In this document: in pieces, positions 1 to 7,557 of the stretch | Position numbering within the stretch: position 1 is the stretch's first letter | Layout: each line of letters begins with the position of its first letter | Made by a program: the position numbers and the translations under genes | Origin: a virus | Reading direction: 5' to 3' (one strand) | IMG/VR virus record: IMGVR_UViG_3300033151_000135 | Location: 1-22,521 of that record | Length of the DNA: 22,521 bases | Notes under the pieces: model-generated | Seen by the model: the letters and a program-made list of their open reading frames with translations, nothing else | Database searches by the model: none | What the model was told of the DNA's origin: nothing

Positions 1-40
1 CTTTCCCGCCTCTCTGTTTGTTGTATGAATACAAAAACGT

Positions 41-58
41 CTAGGTTTAAGCTCCTAG
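41..58. repeat. Short inverted repeat CTAGG/CCTAG left of the repeat array
   Basis: CTAGG (41-45) and CCTAG (54-58) can form a 5-bp stem with an 8-base loop. It directly abuts the first 22-base tandem repeat at 61. The same CTAGG half-sites recur between the leftward genes (1618-1630, 2005-2018, 2258-2272). It is too short to call a terminator on its own. Bases 1-40 show nothing recognisable. Confidence 0.4.
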
Positions 59-60
59 AA

Positions 61-219
61 CCTTGGTGTATTAATGTTCAGACCTTGGTGTATTAATGTT
101 CAGACCTTGGTGTATTAATGTTCAGACCTTGGTGTATTAATGTTCAGCCCTTGGTGTATTAATGTTCAGACCTTGGTGTATGGTGGCCTTTGTGTATTAA
201 TGTTCAGCCCTTGGTGTAT
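61..219. repeat. Tandem array of a 22-base unit (six full and two truncated copies)
   Basis: Full units lie at 61-82, 83-104, 105-126, 127-148, 149-170 and 187-208. Each begins CCTTGGTGTATTAATG and ends GTTCAGA or GTTCAGC; the copy at 187 has one T-for-G change. Truncated copies at 171 and 209 keep only CCTTGGTGTA and are both followed by TGGTG. No spacers separate the units, so this is not a CRISPR array. No reading frame of note runs through it. The compact, near-perfect, AT-rich repeats resemble iterons, which bind replication initiators or partition or repressor proteins, but the function here is inferred. Bases 220-285 contain nothing else I recognise. Confidence 0.95.
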
Positions 220-285
220 GGTGTGTTAAATCATCAATTGTAGGAATATAGGAGCTTGATAGACCTCCCCGGTGCCAGCTACCAT

Positions 286-327
286 TAAAAACTTAGAAGC
301 TCCGAGAGCCCTAGACTCTCGGAGCTT
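286..327 (-). terminator. Rho-independent terminator of the leftward operon
   Basis: A perfect 12-bp stem (AAGCTCCGAGAG at 297-308, complement at 316-327) with a 7-base loop lies 6 bases past the stop codon of the zinc-ribbon gene. Read on the minus strand, the stem is followed after five bases by five Ts (291-287). The strong GC-rich stem plus U run at the end of a leftward gene chain makes termination of minus-strand transcription the obvious reading. Confidence 0.85.
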
Positions 328-333
328 TGCTTG

Positions 334-546
334 CTATATCAAGCCTTCGATGATTAGCGCGCTTGATAGTGCCTTTTCGCCGCATTCAGGACAAGTGACC
401 TTTTCGGCATCAGGCTCTAGTTGGTCAACATATTTGCACCTTGTGCAAATAGCCCAACATATGCTGTCACTTGTCCCTTCCTCTAGAATCTCCATTAGGG
501 ACATTCCTGTCACTTCCTCTAGTACCCTTTCGAATTCTTCCTGCAT
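334..546 (-). CDS. Small zinc-ribbon protein of unknown function (70 aa)
   Basis: The product is a 70-residue acidic protein. An N-terminal helix-rich part contains EEVTGMSLMEILEEGT, followed by a zinc ribbon with C34-x2-C37 and C52-x2-C55 (CTRC, CPEC). Small proteins of this layout are common in large phage genomes; such ribbons usually bind nucleic acid or proteins, but no specific role can be assigned. The ATG at 546 is preceded by a strong Shine-Dalgarno sequence (AAAGGAGG, 6 bases away). It is the last gene of the leftward operon and is followed by a terminator. In the mRNA, CTCC just upstream can pair with the GGAG of its ribosome binding site; CTCC is also part of the 3' arm of the inverted repeat around the preceding gene, so its translation may be coupled to that structure. 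Confidence 0.8.
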   Translation of the reverse strand: MQEEFERVLEEVTGMSLMEILEEGTSDSICWAICTRCKYVDQLEPDAEKVTCPECGEKALSSALIIEGLI

Positions 547-606
547 TGGTTCCTCCTTTAGGGAGCCTTAATGGTGGCCACTGTGCACTCTATTGAGGAT
601 TCTTAA

Positions 607-1575
607 TTAGACCCGGTATTCTCCGAGTCCGTCAGGGTTGTTATCAAGCACGAGCTTGATAACGTCCACAACAACCTGATCAGGATGCTGTGCGACTACC
701 TGCTCCATGTCCTTTCGGCTCATGGATTTTGGTACTTCGACATCGGGCTTGGTGATGAATGCCTCGACATCTTCGATCTTGACATTCGGTGTTGCATCGT
801 AGAATGCCTTGATCTTTTTGTACCCGAGCCCCTTGAGGTTCAGGTCGCCCTTGACGATTCGGTCAACAATCTTCAGTGACTTCCAGTCACCGTCAAGCTT
901 CAGGATAGCGTGCATATCCTGACGCTGACCACGCTTTGAGATTCCAAGCGTTTCGCCAATTTTGGTCCCACCGTAACATTTCTGATACAGTGTCTTACCG
1001 ATGAGTAGGAAATCGGTTTTGCTCGGAGCTTTCGCACCGAGGACCTTTAAGGTGTTTTCCTTGATGCAAGTGTCCTTGCGATCTTGGGGGTCCGTATAAC
1101 TCTGGACCTGCACCTTTACATCATAGAATCCCGGCATTGATCGCTTTGACGCAATGACATTTGCATCCAAGACGACGTGATTCCGCCGGAATCCGAACAC
1201 ACCTTCATACTTCGGCTTGATGATTTTGCCATCGGCCATGAAGGTCTTCTCGAAGGCGCGCAGCCTTTCAGCCGGGCTTGCCGTGACCAGTTCGCCATCG
1301 ATGACATACTTCGTCTCTTTGACGTTTTCGTCAACGGCCTTTTTGAGAGCGTCAAGACGCTCCTGTCTTGCAGCCATGACAATCTTGGCATCTTCGGGCG
1401 TTATTGCTAACACCTTCAGATATGCACAAGTATCGTCCAGCCAGCCCTTATGCATGGCTTGGATCAAATCCTGCTGATCCTTACGCTCAACGCTCAAGAC
1501 CCCAGTAGGTCTTGAGTAATTCCTGTCGGCGATGTAACCAATCGCTGACATTTTGGTCTTGATGATCTCTGACAT
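607..1575 (-). CDS. ParB-like / helix-turn-helix protein (322 aa), putative
   Basis: The product has 322 residues from the ATG at 1575, preceded by GGAAGGAAC. A TTG start at 1599 would add eight residues but lacks a ribosome binding site. The middle-to-C-terminal part resembles the ParB/KorB DNA-binding module: an ENTLKVLGAKAPSKTD segment, a candidate helix-turn-helix in GTKIGETLGISKRGQRQ, then KIVDRIVKGDLNLKGL. ParB relatives bind DNA in partition or regulation; some phage versions are nucleases or transcription factors. No ParA gene is visible, so partition is not demonstrated. It is the longest gene of the leftward operon and is enclosed by a 25-bp inverted repeat. The family call rests on pattern recognition only; an unrelated early phage protein remains possible. 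Confidence 0.7.
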   Translation of the reverse strand: MSEIIKTKMSAIGYIADRNYSRPTGVLSVERKDQQDLIQAMHKGWLDDTCAYLKVLAITPEDAKIVMAARQERLDALKKAVDENVKETKYVIDGELVTASPAERLRAFEKTFMADGKIIKPKYEGVFGFRRNHVVLDANVIASKRSMPGFYDVKVQVQSYTDPQDRKDTCIKENTLKVLGAKAPSKTDFLLIGKTLYQKCYGGTKIGETLGISKRGQRQDMHAILKLDGDWKSLKIVDRIVKGDLNLKGLGYKKIKAFYDATPNVKIEDVEAFITKPDVEVPKSMSRKDMEQVVAQHPDQVVVDVIKLVLDNNPDGLGEYRV

Positions 1576-1597
1576 CTTTAGTTCCTTCCAAAGTGTC
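1571..1597 (-). promoter_or_regulatory. Start-codon hairpin with Shine-Dalgarno in the loop (ParB-like gene)
   Basis: In the minus-strand mRNA GACACTTT (1597-1590) pairs with AAAG-A-TGTC (1579-1571), an 8-bp stem with one bulged A. The 10-base loop GGAAGGAACT displays the ribosome binding site, and the ATG (1575-1573) lies in the 3' strand of the stem. The 5' strand begins at the last base of the right arm of the bracket repeat, so the two structures abut. Confidence 0.6.
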
Positions 1598-1656
1598 AAT
1601 GACCACCATTAAGGCTCCCTAGTTTCTAGGACGGCTATTGTGTTGCCTCTTGGGTG

Positions 1657-1968
1657 TTAAATATCTAATGTATCTGGGTAGTCCTTGGCCACTTCTTCAG
1701 CAGTTGTGATATCCCGCCATAACATTTTCGAGAATTCTTGAAACTTAGAATCCCAGTCACCGCGACCAAGCCACAGATACCCGCGTGCAATTTCCGTACG
1801 GGCTTGCTGCAAGTGAGCTATTGCATGTGCTACACATTTGAAGCGTTCGGATATAAATAGTTCATCCGAAAGGTTACTTTGCTCTATATAGTGCAGTGAT
1901 GATTGCGCACTATCTAGTTCAAAGATTGCCCCAGTGAACGGGTTAGTGTGTTTTTGTGGTATTCCCAT
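1657..1968 (-). CDS. Hypothetical protein (103 aa)
   Basis: I do not recognise the family. The 103-residue product is soluble and mixed alpha, with HAIAHLQQARTEIARGYLWLGRGDWDSKF in its centre, which looks like two amphipathic helices. There is no signal peptide, membrane segment or cysteine motif. The ATG at 1968 has GAGG five bases upstream, in a 7-bp hairpin (1971-1991). It sits between two other small leftward genes and is enclosed by its own 25-bp inverted repeat. Its place in an early-type operon, opposite to the virion genes, suggests a host take-over or regulatory function, which is inference only. Confidence 0.72.
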   Translation of the reverse strand: MGIPQKHTNPFTGAIFELDSAQSSLHYIEQSNLSDELFISERFKCVAHAIAHLQQARTEIARGYLWLGRGDWDSKFQEFSKMLWRDITTAEEVAKDYPDTLDI

Positions 1969-1970
1969 GT

Positions 1971-1991
1971 TTGCCTCAATTCTAGAGGCAA
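1971..1991 (-). promoter_or_regulatory. Ribosome-binding-site hairpin of the 103-aa gene
   Basis: TTGCCTC (1971-1977) and GAGGCAA (1985-1991) form a perfect 7-bp stem with a 7-base loop. In the minus-strand mRNA the 3' strand GAGGCAA is the Shine-Dalgarno segment, two bases before the ATG at 1968, so the hairpin would occlude it. The 5' strand (TTGCCTC in RNA sense, from 1991 to 1985) is also the inner end of the right bracket arm, which can instead pair with 1643-1649 beyond the stop codon. Confidence 0.7.
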
Positions 1992-2049
1992 CATAATAGC
2001 CGCCCTAGTGTTTTCTAGAGCGGCTGATTCAGAGTGTCCTGAAGGTTAT

Positions 2050-2223
2050 CTAAATGTGTCCTACGGTTCTCTTCGCTATGGTAATTTCCGCAATGCTTAA
2101 CGTCAGATTCCGGTCAGTTATCGGCAAGCCTAAATCTTCACACATTTTCTTGCCGGCTAGTACGAGCATAGCCCGTGCTGATTGTTTCTTGGTGAATTTA
2201 GGTTTGTGATTGAGTATTTTCAT
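2050..2223 (-). CDS. Hypothetical small basic protein (57 aa)
   Basis: I do not recognise this protein. It is 57 residues, lysine-rich at the start (MKILNHKPKFTKKQSARAM), followed by helix-forming sequence. The ATG at 2223 is chosen because CGAGG lies five bases upstream; an in-frame GTG at 2244 would add seven residues but falls inside the ribosome-binding-site hairpin and has no Shine-Dalgarno. It is enclosed by the longest bracket repeat in the window. Basic small early proteins often bind nucleic acids, but nothing here proves that. Confidence 0.65.
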   Translation of the reverse strand: MKILNHKPKFTKKQSARAMLVLAGKKMCEDLGLPITDRNLTLSIAEITIAKRTVGHI

Positions 2224-2245
2224 GGTGTCCTCGTTTCTGGACACC
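2224..2245 (-). promoter_or_regulatory. Ribosome-binding-site hairpin of the 57-aa gene
   Basis: GGTGTCC (2224-2230) and GGACACC (2239-2245) form a perfect 7-bp stem with an 8-base loop directly against the ATG at 2223. In the mRNA, GGACACC contains most of the GAGGA Shine-Dalgarno. The opposite strand GGTGTCC belongs to the right bracket arm and can pair instead with GGACAC in the 3' arm (complement of 2035-2039), freeing the ribosome binding site. Confidence 0.7.
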
Positions 2246-2351
2246 CTGAATCAACCGCCCTAGTTTCTAGGGTTTTCTAACAATCGGTGTTAGGTCCGTG
2301 AAACTCTGTCCGGTCGACGGCGAAACGCCAGTCTATGCTACCCCGACAGTC

Positions 2352-2369
2352 GGCTAGTCTGTGCTAGCC
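2352..2369 (-). repeat. Hairpin over the stop codon of the 81-aa gene
   Basis: GGCTAG (2352-2357) and CTAGCC (2364-2369) pair perfectly around a 6-base loop. The TAG stop (2356-2354) is in the stem. No U run follows on the minus strand, so this is not an intrinsic terminator. CGACAGTCGGCT (2344-2355) overlaps it and recurs inverted at 2613-2624 with one change. Confidence 0.5.
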
Positions 2370-2599
2370 TCACGTTTCGCAGTGCAGAGCACTGCAAAGT
2401 TATGTTGTGCAGTTGCCAGGCGTACAAGTCTCTCGGTGTGCTTGCGCGCCCGTTCGTTACGTTTCTGACGTCTTGTTAGCGTCGACGTCCTAGCGTCCTG
2501 TTGCTCTGCTAGGGCTTGCGAGCTTAGGACGTGACCACCTAGCTTGCGGTTCCAGTGCTTGCAAGCTTTGGCGGTTAGGGTTCTCTGTTTTGTTCTCAT
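2354..2599 (-). CDS. Hypothetical basic protein (81 aa), possibly leaderless
   Basis: The product has 81 residues, rich in Arg and Lys (RRQKRNERARKHTERLVRL in the middle), with no cysteine or membrane motif. I do not recognise it. It is the promoter-proximal gene of the leftward operon. The ATG at 2599 has no Shine-Dalgarno and lies seven bases past the -10 hexamer of a good promoter, so the transcript from that promoter would begin at or very near the start codon. The stop codon sits in a 6-bp hairpin (2352-2369). GC content looks higher than in the neighbouring genes. The reading frame could be spurious, but its position between promoter and operon and its end at the hairpin support it. Confidence 0.55.
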   Translation of the reverse strand: MRTKQRTLTAKACKHWNRKLGGHVLSSQALAEQQDARTSTLTRRQKRNERARKHTERLVRLATAQHNFAVLCTAKREASTD

Positions 2600-2605
2600 A
2601 CTGAT

Positions 2606-2634
2606 ACTATACAGCCAACTGTCGTAAAGGTCAA
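2606..2634 (-). promoter_or_regulatory. Leftward sigma70-type promoter, proximal
   Basis: On the minus strand TTGACC (2634-2629), a 17-base spacer and TATAGT (2611-2606) match the sigma70 consensus closely. The expected start of transcription, about seven bases downstream, coincides with the A of the ATG at 2599, predicting a leaderless mRNA for the 81-aa gene and expression of the whole leftward operon. Confidence 0.7.
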
Positions 2635-2663
2635 GGGAAATGTGAATAATAATAATAGTGTAA

Positions 2664-2681
2664 CCTACCTAATCGGGTAGG
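2664..2681. promoter_or_regulatory. Inverted repeat, possible operator
   Basis: CCTACC (2664-2669) and GGTAGG (2676-2681) flank a 6-base spacer, a perfect dyad 30 bases upstream of the proximal leftward -35 box and within the leader of the distal promoter. The size fits a dimeric repressor or activator site, but no cognate protein is identified. Confidence 0.4.
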
Positions 2682-2750
2682 ATACAGAGAAAGTGAGAAA
2701 AATAATAATTTTGTTTACTTTAATATCCATAGAATCTAGGTTCTAGGAGG

Positions 2751-2780
2751 TTGACCGGCGGAATACGTATCTCGTATATC
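2751..2780 (+). promoter_or_regulatory. Candidate rightward promoter for the late operon
   Basis: TTGACC (2751-2756), an 18-base spacer and TATATC (2775-2780) give a moderate match to sigma70. Transcription would start near 2787, inside the -10 box of the opposing leftward promoter. The match is imperfect and late phage operons often use other factors, so confidence is low. Confidence 0.35.
2763..2777. promoter_or_regulatory. Dyad ATACG-N5-CGTAT at the overlapping promoter starts
   Basis: A perfect 5-bp dyad sits at the predicted start of the distal leftward transcript and inside the rightward promoter spacer. A protein bound here could affect both. It could also be chance, given its small size. 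Confidence 0.3.
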
Positions 2781-2783
2781 TCT

Positions 2784-2813
2784 ATTCTAGTATAGGGTTG
2801 ATGATTTTGTCAA
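2784..2813 (-). promoter_or_regulatory. Leftward sigma70-type promoter, distal
   Basis: On the minus strand TTGACA (2813-2808) is a perfect -35 box, followed after 18 bases by TAGAAT (2789-2784), five of six matching TATAAT. The predicted start is near 2777, giving a leader of roughly 180 bases before the 81-aa gene. A perfect palindrome (2828-2842) lies 14 bases upstream of the -35 box. Confidence 0.65.
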
Positions 2814-2827
2814 GGTGTTAGAGTATG

Positions 2828-2842
2828 CTGTTACAGTAACAG
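2828..2842. promoter_or_regulatory. Palindrome CTGTTACAGTAACAG, candidate operator
   Basis: Seven-base arms CTGTTAC and GTAACAG surround a single central base. This geometry is typical of a dimeric regulator site. It lies just upstream of the distal leftward promoter, a position suited to activation or to repression of rightward transcription. The binding protein is unknown. Confidence 0.5.
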
Positions 2843-2922
2843 GGTGGGTGATACCGGCGTGGTAAGTGGATTAAGGGCACATAATGCTGTCAGAGGGCAC
2901 CCTATTTTGCTACCACCAAAAA

Positions 2923-2990
2923 TCCTAGAACCTTAGTATCTGCCTGTGCAACCTCTAGGAACCTAGGAACCTTAGTGCATATCATCAATT
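2923..2990. repeat. CCTAGAACCTTAG-type degenerate repeats before the terminase genes
   Basis: TCCTAGAACCTTAGT (2923-2937) and CCTAGGAACCTTAGTGCAT (2962-2980) are related to each other and to TCCTAGAACCTTGGTGTAT (53-71), the junction with the first unit of the left repeat array. ATCATCAATT follows at 2981-2990 and also closes the left array (230-239). The shared block may be a binding site on both sides of the leftward operon. Confidence 0.6.
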
Positions 2991-3103
2991 AACACACTCC
3001 ATTGACAAAAGGATTTTTAGTGGAATTGTGGAAAATAATCGAAAAAAGAATGTTACTACAATCGGGAAAGCAACACACTAGATTGTCAAGGGAGCGTGTC
3101 AAA

Positions 3104-3643
3104 ATGGCCGACGTAACTAAAACACACTGTGATGACCCAGATCGCTGTCAGGCAATGACTCAAATTGGTCAGTGTACTAATCTATCAGCAGAAACATCAG
3201 ACTATTGTGCGTTACATGGTGCCAACAGAGCAGCAAAGCGGGATTTTAAGAACTATAGTCTCGGTATGTGGCGAGCCAAGATGAACGCCAAACTTGAGAA
3301 CCCAGAATTCAAAAGCCTGAGAGAAGAGGTTGGGCTTATACGGATGTTGGTTGATTCTCGTTTTACAAAAATTAAAAATGACACCGACCTTATGTTAGAA
3401 AGTCAGGCTATCGCCGACTTGATGATGAAAGCCGAACGCCTGGTCATGAGCTGCAATAAGCTAGAAGCCTCAACCGGGCAACTTATGGACAAGCAAGCTA
3501 TTCTCGTGTACGCTAGCAAGCTCATAGGGTACATTGATGAAACGATCACACACTTCGTGACAGACAAAGAGTTAGCTAAGAAAATCGTGAGCGCCTTGGG
3601 TGACAAAATCATCGAAGCTGCTGCTAATAACGAGTCAGAGTAA
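3104..3643 (+). CDS. Putative small terminase subunit / zinc-binding packaging protein (179 aa)
   Basis: The start at 3104 is chosen because GGGAG lies nine bases upstream; an in-frame TTG at 3002 would add 34 residues without support. The N-terminus carries a zinc-type motif C15-x8-C24-x10-C35-x2-H38 (RCQAMTQIGQC, YCALHG), followed by a long alpha-helical region with conserved-looking KSLREEVGLIRMLVDSR and GQLMDKQAILVYASKLIG. Its position directly before the large terminase gene is that of TerS, which recognises packaging sites on phage DNA. The helical body and possible DNA-binding zinc motif agree with this role, but sequence alone does not prove it. It is the first gene of the rightward operon. 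Confidence 0.7.
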   Translation: MADVTKTHCDDPDRCQAMTQIGQCTNLSAETSDYCALHGANRAAKRDFKNYSLGMWRAKMNAKLENPEFKSLREEVGLIRMLVDSRFTKIKNDTDLMLESQAIADLMMKAERLVMSCNKLEASTGQLMDKQAILVYASKLIGYIDETITHFVTDKELAKKIVSALGDKIIEAAANNESE

Positions 3644-3667
3644 CCCTACAGCCCTACAGCCCTACAG
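3644..3667. repeat. Three tandem copies of CCCTACAG between TerS and TerL genes
   Basis: CCCTACAG occurs at 3644-3651, 3652-3659 and 3660-3667, directly after the stop codon of the TerS-like gene and before the AAGGA of the terminase ribosome binding site. It may be slippage expansion of a spacer or a protein-binding site; nothing decides between these. Confidence 0.9.
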
Positions 3668-3686
3668 CCTAAGGACGGGAACCTTG

Positions 3687-5321
3687 ATGACAGAACTGTC
3701 CCAGCTCTTAACCGATCGCTTAGTCTCTGGCCTGAAAAGGTCAGCGATCACGAAGTGTAGTGAGTGGGCGAACAGATACAGAGTAATGGGTAGCCCATAC
3801 CCAGGTCCATGGACCTTTGATCATCATCCGTGGTTGCGAGAGATGCATGACGCTGAAGGCGAACTGATCATTGGGCAAAAAGGCGCACAGCTAGGCTTTA
3901 CAGAATATGCCCTCAATGAAACTTTCTATGCCATCGATATGAAAGGCCAGAGCGTCCTCTATATATTGCCCGCGAGCACACCTGACGCGAAAGACTTTGC
4001 AACAAGTCGTTTCGATCCGGCACTGGAAGGGTCCAAGCACCTTAGAGAACTATTTACTGACGTAAAGAATATTCACCACAAAAGAGCCGGTCACGCAAAT
4101 TTATTCATCAGAGGAAGCCGCAGTCGGTCGCAACTCAAAAGTGTTCCAGTAGCCAAAATAATTTTGGACGAAGTAGATGAAATGGTCCAAAGAAATATTC
4201 CATTAGTATTTGAGCGTGTAAGTGGCCAAATCGAAAAACAGATTATGATGATAAGTACACCCACAATCGAGAACATGGGCATCAATGAATACTATAATAG
4301 ATCAACACGGGAACACTTCTTTTTCAAATGCCCACACTGTAGCAAACTAACAGAATTGACTTTCCCCGATTGTCTGGTTATTACAAGCGAAGACCCTGAT
4401 GATGCAGACATCATGAATACACATATCGTATGCAAAGAGTGTAAGCATCCATTAGATCACACTACAAAACCCGACTGGCTGAAAGACGGTCAGTGGGTTG
4501 CAGAAACTCCGGACAAAATGTCTCGCGGATTCCACGTTAATCAACTATATAGCTGCACGGTAGAACCATATAAGCTTGCGATACTATACTTGCAGAGCCT
4601 TACAGACCAGACCAAAGAGCAAGAATTCTACAATAGTAAGCTAGGGCTTCCACACGCCGTTAAGGGTGCGCGCGTAACCGAAACCGAAATCAAAGAAGCA
4701 ATGCGCGAATATATGATGGGACCAGTGCAAGGCTTGATAACAATGGGCATCGACGTTGGTAACACTCTTCACTATGAAGTATGCAGCTGGGAAATTATAC
4801 CTTCACAGACAGCTGACTTAAATAGCAGTGCCAAGGCTAAAGTAATCTGTTCAGGAGGCGTCCAGCACTTTGAGGAGCTTGATGACTTACTCAGAGACTA
4901 CAATGTAGTTACGGCTGTAATTGATGCCAACCCCGAAAAGCGTAAAGCCTTCGAATTCGCACAGCGCAACTACGGTAAAGTGAAACTTTGTTATTACGGT
5001 AGAAACGTACGTGGCAAAGACATCAGCGTAAGCGCCAAGGAATCACACGCAATCTCCGTGGACCGAACAAGTTGGCTTGATGCCTCACTGGGTCGGTTCC
5101 GCAACAAAACTATTACATTACCACGAGACATTGCCCAGGAATATAAGACACATATAATGGTACCCACACGCATATACGAGAAAGATGCAGATGGCAACCA
5201 AGTGGGTAGGTACGTCAGTGGCACAAAAGCTGACCACTTGGCCCATGCACGAAATTACTGTGAGATAGCTCTGCCGTTGGCGGCAGGGGCTGTTGCTAAC
5301 TACGACATACAAAATTACTAG
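3687..5321 (+). CDS. terL: Terminase large subunit, GpA-like (544 aa)
   Basis: This is the ATP-driven motor and nuclease that packages phage DNA through the portal. The start at 3687 follows AAGGA. The ATPase part has a deviant Walker A, GQKGAQLGFT (residues about 63-72), with the lysine at the front of the loop as in lambda gpA relatives, and Walker B IILDEVDE (D161, E162). A zinc-binding insert has C215-x2-C218 and C249-x2-C252. The C-terminal nuclease with RNase H-like fold shows candidate acidic residues D356 (MGIDVG), D413 (VIDANPE) and D516 (KADHLAHARN). Family (phage terminase GpA type) and gene order, followed nine bases later by the portal gene, agree. Length is within the family's range though shorter than lambda gpA (641). 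Confidence 0.95.
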   Translation: MTELSQLLTDRLVSGLKRSAITKCSEWANRYRVMGSPYPGPWTFDHHPWLREMHDAEGELIIGQKGAQLGFTEYALNETFYAIDMKGQSVLYILPASTPDAKDFATSRFDPALEGSKHLRELFTDVKNIHHKRAGHANLFIRGSRSRSQLKSVPVAKIILDEVDEMVQRNIPLVFERVSGQIEKQIMMISTPTIENMGINEYYNRSTREHFFFKCPHCSKLTELTFPDCLVITSEDPDDADIMNTHIVCKECKHPLDHTTKPDWLKDGQWVAETPDKMSRGFHVNQLYSCTVEPYKLAILYLQSLTDQTKEQEFYNSKLGLPHAVKGARVTETEIKEAMREYMMGPVQGLITMGIDVGNTLHYEVCSWEIIPSQTADLNSSAKAKVICSGGVQHFEELDDLLRDYNVVTAVIDANPEKRKAFEFAQRNYGKVKLCYYGRNVRGKDISVSAKESHAISVDRTSWLDASLGRFRNKTITLPRDIAQEYKTHIMVPTRIYEKDADGNQVGRYVSGTKADHLAHARNYCEIALPLAAGAVANYDIQNY

Positions 5322-5329
5322 GAGCCCTG

Positions 5330-6982
5330 ATGGCTACATCAATAAAAACTTTGGTTCACCCAGACTATAATGCGTCTGAAATGGCAAAGCATCGTCTCAC
5401 ATACGAGGGTGGGGACACATTCAAAGAAGAGTATTTGGCTAAGTTCTCAGCACGTGAGGACGCAACCGAATTCAGTGACAGAAAACAGATGTCCTACGTT
5501 CCTGCACACGCAAAAGCGGCTATCAATGACATCAAGAATGCAATCTATCAGCGCATGGTGGACATATCCCGATCAGGCGGCACAGAACAATATCAGCAAG
5601 CAGTGATTGGGCGAGAAGGTGGCGTTGATAATGGTGGCAATGGTATGTCAAGCTTCATTGGTAGAATTGCGTTACCAGAGTTGCTTTCTATGGGTAGGGT
5701 GGGTGTGTATGTTGACCGGCAAGAGGTTCTTGGTGATAGTCTCTTGGATTTCAAAAATAAGGACCCCTACATTTATAAGTATAACATCGAAGATATACGT
5801 TCATGGACGTTTGATACTAACAACATACTCACTAGTGTTCTGCTGAGAGATAATGCATACACAGTTGATGATGATACAGGTTATAAGGTTCCTTCTGACA
5901 CAACCGTAACATATCGGTACCTTGAGCTTACTAATGAAGGCGTGATTGTTAAGATAACTGATGAGAATGACGAGATATTACAAAGTGCGCTACTTAATCT
6001 AGTACGCATCCCATTCGTTATGATGGACATTGGCACCAGTCTTCTTAAAGACATAGCTGATTACCAGATTGCACTATTGAATCTGGCTTCTAGTGACGTC
6101 AACTACGGTTTCAAAGGCAACTACCCCTTCTACGTTGAACAATTCTCGCCGCATACAGCTATGCTCTCACGTACAAGTGAAGATGGCACTTCTGCTGATG
6201 CCGCTTCTGATCGAGAGATCAAAGCAGGGATATCAAAAGGTAGAGCATACCCAGTTGGAACAGATCAGCCGGCATTCATCCATCCGAGTCCTGAGCCTCT
6301 TGACATCTCGATGCAGAAGCAAGAACAGATGAAGCAAGAGATTCGGCAGCTAGTGAACCTTAACATCACAAATGTTGAGCCACGCAGAGCAAGTGCCGAA
6401 GCTAAGTCTTTTGATGAACGCGGCCTAGAGGCTGGGTTATCATTTATTGGGTTGGAACTTGAGTACGGTGAGAATCTTATTGCACAAACGTGGATGGATT
6501 ATGTAAATAAGGGTGAGATGAAAAATATCACAGTATCTTATCCAAAACGCTATAGTCTTAAAACTGAAACTGAGACACAGGAAGAATCATCAGTCATATT
6601 AGAAACTGCAGCCAAGATTCCGTCAAACACTTACAAGCGGCAAGCTGCACTGAAAGTCATTGACTTAACAATGGGCACAAGCGTAGATGCTAAGACACTA
6701 GAAGTAATGAAGGAAGAAATCTTAGATGCGAAATTTGTACTCACTGATAGAGAGACGCTTGATCAAGACATCGAAAATGCACTTGTGAGTGCTGAGACTG
6801 CTTCGTTGGCTTGTGGTTACCCGAAGGGCGAAGTAGATAAGGCACAAGAAGAGCGGGCTGTCAGAGCCGCAGCCGTTGCAGAAGCACAGAGTACGGCTAG
6901 TGGTAAAGGCGTCTTAGAGATTGAGAACGCATTTAAGAAGGGAAATGACAACAAAGGAGTAGACACCAATGCCGGAGCATGA
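5330..6982 (+). CDS. Portal protein (550 aa)
   Basis: The portal forms the dodecameric ring at one capsid vertex through which DNA passes. The identification rests on size, position directly after the large terminase, and a portal-like pattern: an N-terminal HPDYNASEMAKHRLTYEGGD segment, a region beginning LPELLSMGRVGVYVDR, and a long helix-rich C-terminal half with QKQEQMKQEIRQLVNLN (stem/wing type). It resembles DUF4055-like portals of environmental siphoviruses. AGGAG six bases before ATG 5330 sets the start. The C-terminal tail is Ala/Glu/Lys-rich. The last 14 bases overlap the next gene. Confidence 0.88.
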   Translation: MATSIKTLVHPDYNASEMAKHRLTYEGGDTFKEEYLAKFSAREDATEFSDRKQMSYVPAHAKAAINDIKNAIYQRMVDISRSGGTEQYQQAVIGREGGVDNGGNGMSSFIGRIALPELLSMGRVGVYVDRQEVLGDSLLDFKNKDPYIYKYNIEDIRSWTFDTNNILTSVLLRDNAYTVDDDTGYKVPSDTTVTYRYLELTNEGVIVKITDENDEILQSALLNLVRIPFVMMDIGTSLLKDIADYQIALLNLASSDVNYGFKGNYPFYVEQFSPHTAMLSRTSEDGTSADAASDREIKAGISKGRAYPVGTDQPAFIHPSPEPLDISMQKQEQMKQEIRQLVNLNITNVEPRRASAEAKSFDERGLEAGLSFIGLELEYGENLIAQTWMDYVNKGEMKNITVSYPKRYSLKTETETQEESSVILETAAKIPSNTYKRQAALKVIDLTMGTSVDAKTLEVMKEEILDAKFVLTDRETLDQDIENALVSAETASLACGYPKGEVDKAQEERAVRAAAVAEAQSTASGKGVLEIENAFKKGNDNKGVDTNAGA

Positions 6983-7250
6983 CAATATCCCAGGGTTCAA
7001 AGACTTACCACTTGATGAACAGATCATCATTGACGCACTCAAAGACAATCCAATACAGAATGCCGTCTTTACAATGACAAAAGTTTCAGAGATTCGGCAA
7101 GAGCAAATGAAGATGCAGAGGAAATGCACGGCAACACACAAGACGGTTGACAAGCGAATAGACTGTCTGTTCAGTTACAAAAATAAAATAATGGGCGCGC
7201 TAGCCGTGATAGTGTCAGTGGCTGCCGTCATCAAAATAATCTTCTTTTAA
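6969..7250 (+). CDS. Small C-terminally anchored membrane protein (93 aa)
   Basis: A soluble, charged N-terminal part of about 65 residues, predicted helical (KVSEIRQEQMKMQRKC), is followed by a C-terminal hydrophobic segment (IMGALAVIVSVAAVIKIIFF) that reaches the last residue. The start overlaps the portal gene by 14 bases and has GGAG upstream. Layout resembles XhlA-like or other one-span phage membrane proteins. A lysis role is possible but it lies within the head module without a lysin next to it, so the function is left open. Confidence 0.75.
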   Translation: MPEHDNIPGFKDLPLDEQIIIDALKDNPIQNAVFTMTKVSEIRQEQMKMQRKCTATHKTVDKRIDCLFSYKNKIMGALAVIVSVAAVIKIIFF

Positions 7251-7260
7251 GGAATAAGCC

Positions 7261-7557
7261 ATGAACGTAGCAAGCGTAGAAATTGCAGTAACGGTTAAAA
7301 GTCTTAAAGCCATAGTTGCAACGCTACCGGATGAAGTAGCATCATTAACGATGCAAGCACCTGCTGGCAATGCAGCGGCAGTCGTGTTTGGTAATTCAGC
7401 ATTGCAGATTTTTGAAATGAATGCCGGCGACCCGTGGATAACGATACCGGCCCAGGTTGTTGGCGGTAGAATCAACTTGAACGAAATTTATGTTGGTGGC
7501 ACAGCTACTGATACAGTGTCAGTCAACTGGATTGAACTCGGGAAGGTCGAGCAATAA
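7261..7557 (+). CDS. Small virion-associated protein, putative (98 aa)
   Basis: The 98-residue product is rich in beta-type sequence (IPAQVVGGRINLNEIYVGG, TDTVSVNWIELG) and ends like many small phage structural proteins. I do not know its exact family. GGA upstream of ATG 7261 is a weak ribosome binding site. Its stop overlaps the next start as TAATG, showing translational coupling with the large adhesin-like gene that follows. A capsid decoration or fibre-base role is inferred from context only. Confidence 0.7.
   Translation: MNVASVEIAVTVKSLKAIVATLPDEVASLTMQAPAGNAAAVVFGNSALQIFEMNAGDPWITIPAQVVGGRINLNEIYVGGTATDTVSVNWIELGKVEQ

Follow-up and report, generated by a model that had tools for sequence, protein, structure and literature searches.

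We uncovered, in a 22.5-kb contig of an uncultured tailed phage (22,521 nt in all; hereafter the window), three consecutive genes of a small operon, coding for proteins of 57, 103 and ~322 aa, each of which lies inside its own inverted repeat of 25-29 bp. Based on folding models, we consider it probable that each of these cistrons is a natural toehold switch acting in cis, whereby the completed cistron gates its own translation. Their location is upstream of the terminase genes. The structural genes and TerL (3687-5321) are on the plus strand, and the operon runs in the opposite direction on the minus strand, in the order 81 aa, 57 aa, 103 aa, ~322 aa (ATG 1575) and 70 aa. The three gene-bracketing stems score 54-62, against 38 for the next best helix in the window. 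The elements concerned, all on the minus strand, are:

2606-2634, minus: sigma70-like promoter TTGACC-17-TATAGT before the operon, a consensus match only
2235-2263, minus: 5′ arm of the 57-aa cistron, with its outer ~18 nt free (the candidate toehold) and its inner end complementary to the ribosome-binding site (RBS) and start codon
2224-2245, minus: local RBS hairpin of the 57-aa gene, 7 bp with an 8-nt loop, with the Shine-Dalgarno sequence (SD) GAGG at 2232-2229
2050-2223, minus: 57-aa ORF, no family found
2015-2043, minus: 3′ arm of the 57-aa cistron, 6 nt past the stop codon, repeating the RBS segment (GGACAC)
1998-2025, minus: alternative junction hairpin of 11 bp, joining the 3′ arm of the 57-aa cistron to the 5′ arm of the 103-aa cistron, -19.7 kcal/mol, z -4.2
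1984-2008, minus: 5′ arm of the 103-aa cistron, 6 nt past the 3′ arm of the 57-aa cistron
1971-1991, minus: local SD hairpin of the 103-aa gene, 7 bp, competing with an intra-arm hairpin
1657-1968, minus: 103-aa ORF, no family found
1626-1650, minus: 3′ arm of the 103-aa cistron, 6 nt past the stop codon, repeating AGAGGCAAC of the RBS
1597-1621, minus: 5′ arm of the ~322-aa cistron, pairing with 583-559
1560-1608, minus: local hairpin of the ~322-aa gene, with the SD (AAGGAA) in the loop, the AUG in the stem and the 5′ arm paired with the codons after the AUG
607-1575, minus: ~322-aa ORF (ATG 1575), distantly linked to the long bracketed proteins of the relatives L018 and L019 (hhalign probability 78%)
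559-583, minus: 3′ arm of the ~322-aa cistron, pairing with 1621-1597

The 57-aa cistron provides the clearest rendition of the proposed device. Its 5′ arm and RBS can form the helix TTCAGGGTGTCC/GGACACCATGAA, and GGTGTCC (2245-2239) pairs with GGACACC (2230-2224) flush with the ATG (2223-2221); this local hairpin folds at -12.9 kcal/mol (z -1.97). The long bracket (2263-2235 with 2043-2015), wherein all three positions of the 25-nt core that depart from Watson-Crick pairing are G-U, reaches -48.1 kcal/mol, far beyond the -16.0 kcal/mol of the local fold. When the transcript is folded as it grows, the cost of opening the stretch from SD to ATG falls from ~12 to 3.9 kcal/mol once its 3′ end passes 2030-2025, and shuffling the 3′ arm removes this fall. 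Thus, the modeled switch of the 57-aa gene is sharp.

The 103-aa cistron has the same elements, its SD being covered by a hairpin of TTGCCTC (1991-1985) with GAGGCAA (1977-1971), and its bracket (2008-1984 with 1650-1626) is again far more stable than the local fold (-41.4 against -13.9 kcal/mol). Hence, the earlier note on this DNA, which had described the hairpins and long brackets of these two genes and the repetition of the RBS sequence in their 3′ arms, is borne out on these points, and the folding energies favor the bracket over the local hairpin, a test that the note had set. Its further proposal, that the 3′ arm frees the RBS, stands in the folding calculations for the 57-aa gene, and for the 103-aa gene only if the upstream 3′ arm is available for the junction hairpin. 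If the 5′ arm can be held by that hairpin (2025-1998), the opening cost drops from 12-14 to 6.0 kcal/mol; with the 57-aa cistron intact upstream it goes from 4.2-9.2 to 6.0, a change that is small or absent, and with the 5′ arm standing alone there is hardly any switching. The reason in both of the latter situations is that the arm pairs internally and the SD stays free: alone, it favors the intra-arm hairpin (-13.9 kcal/mol), while the SD hairpin is the centroid structure (-8.2). The toehold is likewise occupied by the intra-arm or the junction hairpin, as against the 18 nt that are free in the 57-aa gene. In the model, then, the 103-aa switch is dependent on its upstream context.

The ~322-aa gene, absent from the earlier note, constitutes a clear third instance in the folding model. 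Its 5′ end (1621-1545) folds at -24.3 kcal/mol, and the predicted opening cost is 11.7 kcal/mol for the truncated transcript and 7.0 for the full one, returning to 11.4-11.5 when the 3′ arm is shuffled. We found no Pfam or PHROGs family for its product and, by pattern search and tblastn, no viral or cultured-phage match; beyond L018 and L019, the weak profile or pairwise links extend only to the relative L027.

To place these brackets in a wider context, we turned to the relatives of the phage. In IMG/VR these have TerL proteins of about 43-60% identity, besides closer matches to other members of the query set; cultured-phage TerL proteins are at most 26% identical among the matches listed, the best hits among assembled bacterial genomes come from metagenome bins of mixed phyla, and a distant DNA search of cultured phages returned no match. 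Scanning 137 contigs for helices after removal of redundancy, we recovered 59 stems scoring at least 50 in the 401 kb upstream of TerL and none in the 792 kb of TerL and structural genes. Dropping repetitive or non-gene stems by inspection left 45 stems in 18 loci, including the window, all of them within this operon: brackets are present in 16 of the 41 relatives whose upstream sequence exceeds 4.5 kb, as well as in the window and in L191, which have less upstream sequence, and are not detectable in the other 25 of the 41. Elsewhere in large contigs (about 255 kb) there are a few isolated stems and no tandem cluster. In 31 of the 45 stems the loop is a single, closely enclosed sense ORF (antisense in 3; random placement gives 5%), with medians of 16 nt from 5′ arm to start codon and 14 nt from stop codon to 3′ arm. 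The arms measure 21-48 bp (median 27), and successive stems abut, with 14 junctions of 10 nt or less, most of them 3 nt or less. Arm sequences are unrelated between phages, while those of neighboring genes within one phage are sometimes similar (the window, L193). In L004 and L006 the product of the long bracketed gene resembles ParB, with matches to Pfam ParB_N (E 1.5e-4 and 0.03) that fall short of the curated cut-off; when bracketed ParB-like genes were used to search for further loci, two alignments returned only known loci, and a third had no conserved stretch.

Two further features of the 45 stems speak to the level at which they operate. On the coding strand, departures from Watson-Crick pairing comprise 66 G-U against 23 A-C (p=5.7e-6), and stem by stem 26 favor G-U and 5 do not (p=1.9e-4); in the 25-nt cores of the window stems there are seven such departures, six of them G-U on the coding strand and one A-C. 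Stem trimming treated G-U and A-C alike, and since both strands were scored identically in the scan, the bias is not a product of detection. The G-U excess thus indicates that pairing is selected in RNA, and we regard both the bracket structures and their selection in RNA as near certain. The second feature is the complementarity of the inner 5′ arm to its own RBS: the helix score averages 14.6, against 11.5 when the RBSs of other brackets are permuted in (z=7.3, 0 of 50,000), and the identity of the 3′ arm to its own RBS is similarly elevated (z=6.3). The complementarity resides in the small genes (n=23), the 11 long genes as a group giving p=0.125. Clear arm/RBS pairs are AGTGTACC/GGTACACT-ATG in L193, AATCATGGGCACC/GGTGTCTATGATT in L195 and ATACTACCCT/AGGGTAATATG in L077, and there are further clear cases in L014, L006, L030 and L039. 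That the relation between 5′ arm, RBS and 3′ arm recurs in non-homologous sequence across the family argues against coincidence.

Folding energies across the family point the same way. For the 23 small genes, opening the stretch from SD to ATG costs 9.5 kcal/mol if the 3′ arm is missing and 5.0 if it is present; shuffling the 3′ arm gives 9.4 and removing the 5′ arm 4.3 (p=2.6e-5). The drop is 4.6 kcal/mol with a gene's own arms as against 1.2 with those of other phages (p=1.3e-4); the cognate-arm effect is not significant in the long genes (n=11, p=0.21), and two of the 23 small genes change in the opposite direction by more than 0.5 kcal/mol (L030, 8508; L127, 4357). These values are equilibrium calculations that ignore ribosomes and transcription speed, and many genes retain a predicted cost of 4-8 kcal/mol after opening.

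Taken at face value, the models suggest the following course of events. The inner 5′ arm of the nascent message would fold onto the RBS or start codon and block initiation, while the outer 5′ arm would remain single-stranded as a toehold. Once the polymerase has passed the stop codon, the 3′ arm would be made and would act as the trigger, pairing first with the free outer 5′ arm and then migrating inward to displace the RBS; being complementary to the whole 5′ arm, it perforce repeats the RBS sequence. In the end state the gene would sit in a closed loop with its RBS open, and translation would start mainly on transcripts of the complete cistron. The 3′ arm lies outside the ORF and hence is not unwound by elongating ribosomes, though a terminating ribosome would stand beside it. 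A message lacking the 3′ arm, whether transcription stopped short or the 3′ end was eroded, would have its RBS closed, whereas an internal cut would probably go unsensed, as the fragments would stay joined through the ~25-bp duplex. The formation of the bracket in vivo, this order of events and the effect on protein output are what we infer from the above; likewise, the purpose of such a switch could be to avoid translating unfinished or 3′-eroded messages, or to delay expression. We would give even chances to the stronger formulation, in which each gene carries an AND gate with its trigger beyond its own stop codon, such that completed transcription licenses translation gene by gene and the two processes are uncoupled from each other during the first round on each mRNA.

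Among the alternatives, we take most seriously, albeit as an unlikely one, the possibility that the stems are processing or stability elements, i.e., ~25-bp duplexes cut by RNase III into monocistronic messages in the manner of precursor-rRNA stems, or shields for both ends against exonucleases. The lengths of the arms suit RNase III, the expectation for its processing stems being a duplex of at least ~20 bp around the RNA, a length found here, and tandem abutting stems at gene boundaries are what one would expect of processing sites. Processing predicts neither the match of the inner 5′ arm to its own RBS nor the dependence on cognate arms; nevertheless, RNase III processing or RNA stabilization may be an added role beside the switch as much as a rival to it. 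Less likely still is a two-state switch controlled by a factor, such as a phage protein from the operon, an antisense RNA or temperature, in place of the completion of transcription. The ParB-like protein encoded by the operon in several relatives could be such a factor, and alternative structures do exist, for example the junction hairpin at 2025-1998; yet arms unrelated between phages share no binding motif, and with the bracket far more stable than the hairpin, switching needs no factor.

A function at the DNA level, with the genes as invertible or mobile cassettes, might be entertained on the grounds that every bracketed gene sits between inverted repeats and that neighboring genes of one phage (again the window and L193) can have similar arms. 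The strand-specific tolerance of G-U (p=6e-6), the complementarity to the RBS and the divergence between paired arms all point instead to RNA, and make cassettes very improbable. We attach marginally less weight again to chance or the picking of striking cases: the initial case was indeed chosen by eye, but across the family this account is refuted by the confinement of the stems to the region upstream of TerL and by their placement around single sense ORFs.

The proposed cis switch finds its closest parallel in synthetic biology. In a synthetic toehold switch, a single-stranded toehold is followed by a hairpin over the RBS and AUG, which a complementary trigger opens. The ~322-aa gene, with the SD in the loop and the AUG in the stem, has this layout; in the other two window brackets the SD is in the stem. 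In silico, the phage messages hide the RBS and AUG when the trigger is missing (9.5 kcal/mol lacking the 3′ arm, as against 4.3 lacking the 5′ arm; cognate arms exceeding foreign ones) and free the RBS when the complementary trigger is present (5.0 in full, 9.4 shuffled, and the 57-aa series). They differ in having a cis trigger, placed past the stop codon of the same gene, and we know of no natural cis toehold switch triggered from there. Yang et al. in 2021 reportedly used a trigger at the 3′ end of a message to open a hidden RBS. Synthetic protein quality control (doi 10.1038/s41589-021-00736-3, as cited in PMC11602170) employs toehold switches to enrich for full-length protein; that system is engineered, while the phage brackets are natural, one per gene and in tandem.

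The known natural long-distance 5′-3′ interactions in mRNA have the opposite sense. In the MS2 maturation-protein gene, kinetic RNA folding links translation to the age of the transcript, with the nascent RNA open and the finished one closed; the present DNA phage operon would follow the reverse order. In precursor rRNA, processing stems formed from inverted repeats pair across each long RNA, but these are not mRNAs and, unlike the phage brackets, do not gate an RBS. The aapA3 type I toxin mRNA forms a metastable SD hairpin during transcription and then a long-distance 5′-3′ interaction, and the hok mRNA is related to it in principle (PMC6733600). There, the finished message is inert and is activated by 3′ trimming, whereas the finished phage message is predicted to be open; indeed, the full-length fold opens the SD where in hok and aapA it is hidden. 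To our knowledge, no natural system has this sign or tandem per-gene brackets. Extended start-associated sequences of cluster K mycobacteriophages are inverted repeats at the translation starts of many genes (PMC3203893). Both of their 17-bp copies precede the start and follow a common consensus, neither of which holds for the brackets, with one arm beyond the stop codon and gene-specific sequences. In a limited literature search we found no paper describing gene-bracketing stems in phage mRNA.

If the proposed cis switch is correct, it would offer a natural precedent for a design known to us only from synthetic biology, with a sign opposite to that of the known natural long-distance 5′-3′ mRNA interactions, and would mean that a phage delays coupled translation gene by gene. 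The family would then supply dozens of independent, sequence-unrelated natural switches for testing and reuse. Such tandem stems are missed by homology searches and Rfam (whose covariance models gave no matches with E<=1 in positions 1-3700 of the window), and can be detected by structure scans of uncultured viral sequence.

The remainder of the operon shows several further features. The 81-aa gene, first in the operon and devoid of a bracket, has its ATG 6 nt past the -10 box (2634-2597, minus); given the predicted promoter (2634-2606), its mRNA would be leaderless. The 70-aa gene (334-546, minus) also has no bracket of its own; its product, probably a zinc-ribbon protein, has four cysteines and weakly matches the C-terminal part of the anaerobic ribonucleotide reductase NrdD (E 7e-4). 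A strong 14-bp hairpin with a T-rich tail follows it (327-297, minus) and is likely the operon terminator. Beyond the operon, at the window's left end, 22-bp tandem repeats (ACCTTGGTGTATTAATGTTCAG) occupy 60-220 and are possibly iterons or binding sites.

Relatives display variations on the bracket theme. The junction hairpin between successive brackets, considered as a general feature, is strong in the window (27.5) and not in the family (p=0.18). In L004 (4754-6256) and L005 (5519-7163) the brackets are nested, with an outer stem around both a small and a long gene, and pairing is possible in L004 between the outer and the inner 5′ arms (TTGGCCCC/GGGGCCAG). Several brackets of L127 (2069-4688) have arms with a common GAGGCCGGAGGCC-like palindromic core, so that a single stem seems to have been copied to several genes within one phage. 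Outside the gene brackets, L012 (1982-2123) and L016 (132-278) contain related inverted repeats (ATGATTC...AATCC..GACAAAAA) with ~80-nt loops, and L003 bears a long gene with collagen-like Gly-X-Y repeats (5361-7534).
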